From: Mycolicibacterium arabiense
GTDB taxonomy: Bacteria > Actinomycetota > Actinomycetes > Mycobacteriales > Mycobacteriaceae
Assembly (NCBI RefSeq): GCF_010731815.2
Contig: NZ_AP022593.1
Coordinates: 3,596,001 to 3,660,000 of the forward strand
Direction: 5' to 3'
Length of the DNA: 64,000 bases
Position 1 is the stretch's first letter; each line of letters starts with the position of its first letter. Below are positions 18,776 to 20,596 of the stretch, piece after piece. The position numbers and the translations under genes were made by a program. The notes beneath the pieces are model-generated. The model worked only from the letters and a program-made list of their open reading frames with translations. It did not search any database and was not told where the DNA came from.

Positions 18776-20596
18776 GTGGCTGTCGTCGATGACCGGGGTC
18801 GTTCGGACTTGCGTTCCGATTCGCAGGCACCACCGCCCAGCGAGGACTACGGGCGTCAGCCCCCGCAGGACATGGCCGCCGAGCAGTCCGTCCTGGGCGG
18901 CATGCTGTTGTCGAAGGACGCGATCGCCGACGTGCTGGAGAAGCTCCGGCCCAACGACTTCTACAAGCCGGCGCATCAGAGCGTCTACGACGCGATCCTC
19001 GATCTCTACGGCAGGGGAGAGCCGGCCGACGCCGTGATGGTCGCCGCCGAACTGGAGCGCCGCGGACTGCTCAAGCGCGTCGGTGGACATCCCTACCTGC
19101 ACACGCTGATCTCGACGGTGCCGACGGCGGCCAACGCCGGGTACTACGCGGGCATCGTCGCGGAGAAGGCGCTGCTGCGCCGGCTCGTGGAGGCCGGTAC
19201 GCGGGTCGTGCAGTACGGGTACGCCGGGTCGGAGGGCGCCGACGTCGCCGAGGTCGTCGACCGGGCGCAGGCCGAGCTCTACAACGTCACCGACGGCCGC
19301 ACGTCGGAGGACTTCGTCCCGCTCGAGCAGCTGCTGCAGCCGACGATGGACGAGATCGACGCGATCGCCTCGCAGGGCGGCATCGCTCGTGGTGTCCCGA
19401 CCGGCTTCGTCGAACTCGACGAGTGCACCAACGGGTTGCACCCGGGGCAGATGATCGTGATCGCGGCCCGCCCCGGTATGGGCAAGGCGCTCGCGTTGGA
19501 CACTCCGCTGCCGACGCCGACCGGTTGGACCACGATGGGCGAGGTTCGGGTCGGCGATGACGTCGTCGGCGTGGACGGAGTGGCGACGCGCGTCGTCGCG
19601 GCGACCGAGGTGATGGTCGGCCGACCCTGCTACGAGGTCGAGTTCTCCGACGGCACGATGATCGTCGCGGACGAAGAGCACCAGTGGCCCACCGAGGCCG
19701 GCATCCGCACCACGGCGGAGCTGCGCAGCGGTGCCGACCGCATGATCCCGACGGCCGTGCATGCTCAGTCGGGTGGCGGCCGCACGGCGCTGCTGGCGCC
19801 GCCGCTGTACGTCGCGTGGGTGCGCCGGGTCGACAGCGTGCCGGTGCGGTGCATCCAGGTCGACAACGAGTCGCACCTCTACCTCGCGGGCGACGGCATG
19901 GTGCCGACCCACAACTCGACGCTGGGTCTGGACTTCCTGCGGTCGTGCTCGATCAAGAACCGGTTGTCGAGCGTCGTGTTCTCCCTCGAGATGAGCAAGA
20001 CCGAGATCGTCATGCGTCTGCTGTCGGCCGAGGCGAAGATCAAGCTGGCCGACATGCGGTCGGGCCGGATGAGCGACGACGACTGGACGCGGCTGGCTCG
20101 CCGGATGAGCGAGATCAGCGAGGCGCCGCTCTACATCGACGACTCCCCGAACCTCACGATGATGGAGATCCGCGCGAAAGCCCGTCGCCTGCACCAGAAG
20201 GCGGACCTGCGGCTGATCGTCATCGACTACCTGCAGCTGATGACGTCGGGCAAGAAGGTCGAGTCGCGCCAGCAGGAAGTCTCCGAATTCTCGCGTCAGC
20301 TCAAGCTATTGGCCAAGGAGCTGCACGTCCCGGTGATCGCGATGAGCCAGCTGAACCGTGGTCCCGAGCAGCGCACCGACAAGAAGCCGATGCTGTCGGA
20401 CCTCCGTGAGTCGGGCGCCATCGAGCAGGACGCCGACATGGTGATCCTGCTGCACCGGCCCGACGCCTTCGAACGCGACGACCCCCGTGGCGGCGAGGCG
20501 GATCTCATTCTCGCGAAACACCGCAATGGCCCCACCAAGACGATCACCGTGGCGCATCAGCTGCACCTGTCGCGGTTTACGAACATGGCGCACTAG
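18776..20596 (+). CDS. dnaB: Replicative DNA helicase DnaB, interrupted by an intein
   Basis: The 606-residue precursor is the hexameric helicase that unwinds DNA at the fork. The N-terminal domain (about residues 30-135) binds primase, and a linker leads to the RecA-like ATPase. The Walker A motif is split: GMGK ends at Lys237, a 143-residue intein follows, and the ATPase resumes at Ser381 (STLGLDF). Walker B lies in LIVIDYLQL, and the DNA-binding loop region in SQLNRGPEQR. After splicing, the helicase would be 463 residues, the usual size. Helicase activity therefore depends on splicing. The GTG start has GGGGAGG about ten bases upstream. A second intein, known in M. smegmatis DnaB, is absent. 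Confidence 0.97.
   Translation: MAVVDDRGRSDLRSDSQAPPPSEDYGRQPPQDMAAEQSVLGGMLLSKDAIADVLEKLRPNDFYKPAHQSVYDAILDLYGRGEPADAVMVAAELERRGLLKRVGGHPYLHTLISTVPTAANAGYYAGIVAEKALLRRLVEAGTRVVQYGYAGSEGADVAEVVDRAQAELYNVTDGRTSEDFVPLEQLLQPTMDEIDAIASQGGIARGVPTGFVELDECTNGLHPGQMIVIAARPGMGKALALDTPLPTPTGWTTMGEVRVGDDVVGVDGVATRVVAATEVMVGRPCYEVEFSDGTMIVADEEHQWPTEAGIRTTAELRSGADRMIPTAVHAQSGGGRTALLAPPLYVAWVRRVDSVPVRCIQVDNESHLYLAGDGMVPTHNSTLGLDFLRSCSIKNRLSSVVFSLEMSKTEIVMRLLSAEAKIKLADMRSGRMSDDDWTRLARRMSEISEAPLYIDDSPNLTMMEIRAKARRLHQKADLRLIVIDYLQLMTSGKKVESRQQEVSEFSRQLKLLAKELHVPVIAMSQLNRGPEQRTDKKPMLSDLRESGAIEQDADMVILLHRPDAFERDDPRGGEADLILAKHRNGPTKTITVAHQLHLSRFTNMAH
19487..19915 (+). mobile_element. Class 3 mini-intein in the DnaB P-loop
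   Basis: The intein is 143 residues, from Ala1 (ALALDTPLPTPTGW) to Asn143 (VPTHN), followed by Ser as +1 residue. It lacks the Cys/Ser1 nucleophile of class 1 inteins and has the class 3 triad: Trp67 after block B His65 (EEHQW), Cys122 in block F (VRCIQVD) and Thr141 in block G. No homing endonuclease domain is present. It contains exactly two cysteines, Cys48 and Cys122. The M. smegmatis DnaBi1 intein at the same P-loop site is a class 3 intein whose splicing is reversibly blocked by oxidation through a disulfide to the catalytic cysteine; the same may hold here. Confidence 0.95.

Follow-up and report, generated by a model that had tools for sequence, protein, structure and literature searches.

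A class 3 mini-intein in DnaB of Mycolicibacterium arabiense and the cysteine pair that it shares with its relatives

We analysed a window of 64,000 nucleotides from Mycolicibacterium arabiense (contig NZ_AP022593.1, positions 3,596,001 to 3,660,000), in which the gene for the replicative helicase DnaB is interrupted, within the Walker A motif, by what its sequence identifies as a class 3 mini-intein at the DnaB-b insertion site. Our prediction is that this mini-intein splices itself out by means of Cys122 and that oxidation of this residue, likely by way of a disulfide to Cys48, would stall the reaction reversibly, as in the M. smegmatis intein DnaBi1; we are fairly confident of this account, in which the two cysteines came down with the intein family and were not evolved by the host as a device of its own. 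Conservation of Cys48 proved to be nearly class-wide, the residue hardly varying among the DnaB-b and viral class 3 inteins that we sampled, which corrects its earlier description as 'non-conserved'.

The intein in dnaB and its assignment to class 3

The dnaB gene occupies 18776..20596 (GTG start, stop codon included) and lies, like all the features of the gene given below, on the forward strand. Its open reading frame of 606 residues is matched by the DnaB model TIGR00665 (score 525.8 bits, cut-off 385.25, over residues 29-605 of the precursor) and by both PF03796 and PF00772. Translation gives an N-extein of 237 residues (18776..19486) ending in AARPGMGK, the first part of Walker A, an intein of 143 residues from Ala1 to Asn143 (19487..19915, residues 238-380 of the precursor) and a C-extein of 226 residues that begins at Ser+1 with STLGLDFL (19916..20596, including the stop codon). 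The insertion point, GMGK^STLGL, is the GK^S position of the DnaB P-loop; the joined exteins make a protein of 463 residues in which Walker A reads GMGK-ST, and the same site is uninterrupted (GK-ST) in 21 intein-free relatives. An initial annotation of this DNA had described an insert of 143 residues that splits Walker A, starts with Ala, carries the triad Trp67, Cys122 and Thr141 and has Cys48 as its only other cysteine, and translation of 19487-19915 bears out each of these points. The annotation was also right that the gene holds a single intein: we found no second one in dnaB, where the TIGR00665 match reaches the end of the 226-residue C-extein. This absence, which had been taken as distinctive, is not unusual; a C-extein of normal length is found at 11 of the 22 mini-intein loci of the relatives described below, and M. 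leprae also has only one DnaB intein (PMC6195587).

The key residues read in the intein were A1, C48, D62, H65, W67, C122, Y132, T141, H142 and N143. Position 1 is Ala, in place of the Cys, Ser or Thr nucleophile that class 3 inteins lack, and the Trp-Cys-Thr (WCT) triplet was found, in alignment with 6bs8 and 6rix, as Trp67 at block B position 12 (codon at 19685..19687), Cys122, the predicted initiating nucleophile, at block F position 4 (19850..19852) and Thr141 at block G position 5, the last of these within the sequence Thr141-His142-Asn143 (19907..19915) that also supplies the penultimate His and the terminal Asn. The block B His (His65, position 10; 19679..19681) and Ser+1 complete the class 3 set, and the insert is predicted to adopt the HINT fold, its modelled structure superposing on the DnaBi1 crystal structure 6bs8 to 0.7 Å over 125 residues. 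The phmmer E-values were 5.2e-60 to the M. chimaera DnaB intein (6rix) and 3.7e-58 to that of M. smegmatis (6bs8), and no homing endonuclease domain was seen in the 143 residues, which gave no Pfam match at E 0.1. The non-catalytic partner cysteine, Cys48 (19628..19630), aligns with M. smegmatis Cys48, the second cysteine expected of a redox-responsive intein, and Cys122 aligns with M. smegmatis Cys118, so that the two match the disulfide pair of DnaBi1, as the initial annotation had anticipated. Tyr132 (19880..19882) is, by alignment, the equivalent of the M. smegmatis zinc ligand Tyr128 (PMC7360933).

DnaBi1 (6bs8, 6own) shares with the window intein its insertion site, class 3 triad, size, zinc ligand equivalents and fold, and both have exactly two cysteines, at equivalent positions; the two differ in sequence (97 of 139 residues are identical), in a loop where the window intein is four residues longer, and in the number of inteins per gene, M. 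smegmatis DnaB carrying two and the window dnaB one. The M. chimaera DnaB1 intein (6rix, 6riy) likewise lies in DnaB, with the triad Trp67/Cys124/Thr143 and with Cys48 in the alignment, but has 145 residues and Tyr5 in place of Asp5. By its published description (PMC8557812, PMC6195587), the M. leprae DnaB intein has the same site, the class 3 mechanism, Cys48 and a catalytic Cys124, and is the only intein of its DnaB, but it carries two extra cysteines (81 and 110) and shows another pattern with reactive chlorine. A class 3 intein in PhoH of the same genome, outside the window (L002:1510-2586 on the forward strand, which is G000:C2:5840402-5841478), has the Ala start, the block B His and Trp, the block F cysteine and the Thr-His-Asn end, but is 359 residues long, its blocks B and F being separated by an insert, and has Ile at position 48 and no cysteine at 61/62; the genome itself provides in it something to compare the DnaB intein with.

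Predicted splicing and its response to oxidation

Class 3 splicing begins with an attack of the block F cysteine on the N-terminal junction; transfer of the N-extein to Ser+1 and cyclisation of Asn follow (PMC5222942, PMC7664689), and a branched intermediate via block F has been established for the M. smegmatis and M. leprae homologues (PMC5222942). In the window precursor, as translated, GMGK is parted from ST, and Ala1, His65, Trp67, Cys122, Thr141, His142, Asn143 and Ser+1 are all in place. By the published chemistry, Cys122 would attack the Lys-Ala bond, Ser+1 would take up the N-extein and Asn143 would cyclise, closing the Walker A motif; DnaB that has yet to splice would presumably hydrolyse no ATP.

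Splicing of DnaBi1 is inhibited by hydrogen peroxide, in M. smegmatis cells as well as in vitro, and its Cys48-Cys118 disulfide has been detected by mass spectrometry (PMC6195587); inhibition by reactive chlorine has also been reported (PMC8557812), as has inhibition of DnaBi1 by zinc held on Cys118, the Val119 backbone and Tyr128 (PMC7360933). A stall of the window intein by oxidant or zinc is likely, because DnaBi1 behaves in this way and the equivalents of its Cys118 and Tyr128 are present as Cys122 and Tyr132. By homology, peroxide, hypochlorite or zinc would tie up Cys122, and the supply of fresh DnaB would be held back until conditions became reducing again.

Several points weigh against this account. 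The oxidative stall of the window intein is argued from homology only, and the two sulfurs lie 11.0 to 12.1 Å from each other in the DnaBi1 crystal (PMC6195587), so that a strand shift would be required for the disulfide. In addition, the M. leprae intein, with its extra cysteines, responds to reactive chlorine with another pattern of products (PMC8557812), and Cys48 is reported to be needed for splicing itself, all seven substitutions tested in DnaBi1 abolishing it (PMC6195587), so that selection for redox sensing cannot be concluded from its conservation. The Cys-Cys distance in a resting model, by which the initial annotation would have refuted the idea, is not decisive, because the DnaBi1 disulfide forms despite the 11-12 Å seen in the crystal.

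Conservation of Cys48

Relatives were taken from a scan of genome contigs as the best 80 of 592; together with the window copy (L001) and the PhoH locus (L002) these made 82 loci, 56 of them parsed with an intein at the site, 21 intein-free and five unparsed by our junction rule (L002, L024, L051, L054 and L069). With L001 excluded, Cys48 is present in all 55 parsed DnaB-b inteins from these best relatives, that is, in 22/22 mini-inteins and in 33/33 with an insert (total length 256-417 residues). A protein search, of which the best 120 of 7738 were listed, gave 117 parsed proteins (P0004, P0037 and P0042 were unparsed), every one of them with Cys48. The residue is likewise found in 83/83 unique DnaB-b N-halves, whether or not an endonuclease insert is present; in these N-halves, whose mean pairwise identity is 74%, 10 of the 67 other columns tested (residues 1-70) show no variation either, His65 and Trp67 among them by virtue of our filter. 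The number of cysteines is exactly two in 16 of 23 DnaB-b mini-inteins, that of the window included, and in 71 of the 117 proteins; two cysteines are the common state in DnaB-b inteins and not special to the window intein.

Two scans of viral contigs, with patterns that did not include residue 48, were each ranked by likeness to a Cys48-bearing query and kept as the best 80 of 111 and the best 80 of 597; 187 further phage records stand outside the residue-48 counts. Among the 127 unique viral N-halves from these ranked scans, residue 48 is Cys in 121, Thr in five and Ala in one, which at 95% puts it level with Trp14 and above Asp62 (89%), and the catalytic cysteine is Cys in all 121 viral inteins for which a C-half was found. 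A larger pool of 278 unique N-halves was obtained by adding a third viral scan, biased to Thr48 by its pattern DT[YF] at positions 47-49, and searches of genomes in the family (151) and the phylum (396); our own filter required His65 and Trp67 throughout. Cys48 is present here in 83/83 DnaB-b, 144/170 viral, 0/17 PhoH and 6/8 other N-halves. The PhoH inteins, that of the same genome included, have Ile (14) or Val (3) at this position, and some terminase inteins have Thr, Ser, Ala or Val beside an intact WCT set.

The description of Cys48 as non-conserved comes from PMC6195587, where the alignment, by its figure legend, comprises two DnaB and two PhoH inteins; PhoH, the group without Cys48, is one of the two groups in that alignment. 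In the parts of the class 3 literature that we consulted we found no statement of Cys48 conservation, and we make no claim that the conservation itself is new.

Meaning of the cysteine pair

Where the initial annotation proposed that helicase activation depends on redox state, the reversible oxidative stall stands as likely by homology with DnaBi1, but the pair says little for a dedicated replication switch, being near-constant across the DnaB-b and viral group. A checkpoint evolved by the host, in which the mini-intein has been kept because Cys48-Cys122 lets the cell pause replication under oxidative stress, was put forward in the M. smegmatis study on the strength of in vivo data (PMC6195587), and with the endonuclease lost, homing cannot explain why the intein persists. 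We nevertheless consider this quite unlikely: a pair found at 33/33 insert-bearing and 22/22 mini-intein loci and in 121/127 viral N-halves neither arose with domestication nor tracks it, 21 of the 82 loci belong to intein-free relatives that manage without, and Cys48 also occurs in inteins of phage terminases, proteins with no helicase to switch. A replication checkpoint of one host is unlikely because the pair is identical in mobile inteins, mini-inteins and phage terminases.

The conservation of Cys48 may instead reflect a purely structural or catalytic need, in folding or aligning the class 3 active site, with the disulfide to Cys122 as incidental thiol chemistry. The failure of seven of seven DnaBi1 substitutions to splice (PMC6195587) and the reach of the conservation into phage inteins both point this way, and we regard it as a serious possibility while stopping just short of favouring it. 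Such a need is not universal in class 3, because Cys48 is absent from the PhoH inteins (0/17) and from some terminase inteins that have Thr, Ser, Ala or Val at this position and an intact WCT set, and AceL NrdHF splices fast with no cysteine near the position, its only other cysteine, Cys81, being dispensable (PMC7891396). That the window intein has lost its activity, or undergoes cleavage in place of splicing, seems very improbable in view of its full set of catalytic residues, the intact reading frame, the normally essential nature of DnaB and the splicing of two close homologues (PMC5222942).

We also considered, as a speculation that we think doubtful, that the main class 3 lineage has in Cys48 a fourth signature residue, which serves as a guard thiol, the reversible disulfide sparing the catalytic cysteine from irreversible over-oxidation and thereby saving a single-turnover intein and its host protein, with a Cys at 61 or 62 on the neighbouring strand substituting where Cys48 is absent. 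In the pool of 278, Cys at 61 or 62 occurs in 30/45 N-halves without Cys48 and in 16/233 with it (Fisher p 8e-18), many of the former coming from the third, Thr48-biased viral scan. The compensating thiol did not survive a control for relatedness made with our own pairing script, in which 11 independent pairs on the best tree averaged 4.2 in the expected direction against 1.0 in the opposite one (p 0.375); supported branches alone left just three pairs in one analysis and one in another.

Grafting of the WCT triplet into gp41-1 has been reported to fail (PMC7664689). We rejected a missing Cys48 as sufficient cause of that failure: in the printed alignments gp41-1 has Ser48 and Cys61, and the same two residues are found in the natural class 3 inteins L279 and L281.

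Endonuclease inserts and terminase inteins

Mycobacterial DnaB-b inteins have been said to be without endonucleases (PMC5050341), a statement that no longer holds in the wider sample, where three of the six insert-bearing DnaB-b inteins tested have a LAGLIDADG match above the Pfam cut-off. L029:5260-6510 and other DnaB-b inteins of 401-417 residues are full-length forms that show a LAGLIDADG match and, between, four pairs of cysteines, for which the double zinc ribbon match does not reach the cut-off. Others are shorter, the smallest having 256 residues, and look like decaying endonucleases. The cysteine pair predates the loss of the endonuclease, because the insert-bearing inteins also have it. 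Changes between the mini and insert-bearing states number six or seven on the best trees, of which supported branches force only two, and a single origin of the mini-intein was not rejected (p 0.107 with all 25 mini rows; p 0.73 with the 15 mycobacterial ones; L045 was left out of both).

Among natural class 3 inteins, Cys48 is replaced by Thr, Ser or Ala, with His65 and Trp67 intact, in L276, L279, L281, L289, L290, L293, L304, L328 and others. Some terminase large subunits carry several class 3 inteins: the phage protein P0004 (1002 residues) has three short ones, read by eye, and L094 and L097:686-4843 have three each, of 133, 343 and 341 residues. In the terminase large subunits L125, L126, L128 and L131 just three extein residues separate two class 3 inteins within Walker A (PRQ^CGK^ST; in L125 at 2489-2929 and from 2939), the first of each pair ending in Thr-Met-Asn, with Cys at +1.

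Implications

The window locus is itself one more DnaB-b mini-intein in a well-studied group, and the useful part of the analysis is the correction on Cys48. If the guard-thiol idea were true, the pause of DnaB under oxidation would follow from the intein protecting itself, as in phage terminases, and would be no replication checkpoint. On the reading that we prefer, that of a reversible stall through an inherited cysteine pair, the question moves from how the host gained a redox switch to why the intein lineage keeps a second thiol, and the natural class 3 inteins with Thr48, Ser48 or Ile48 are ready comparisons.
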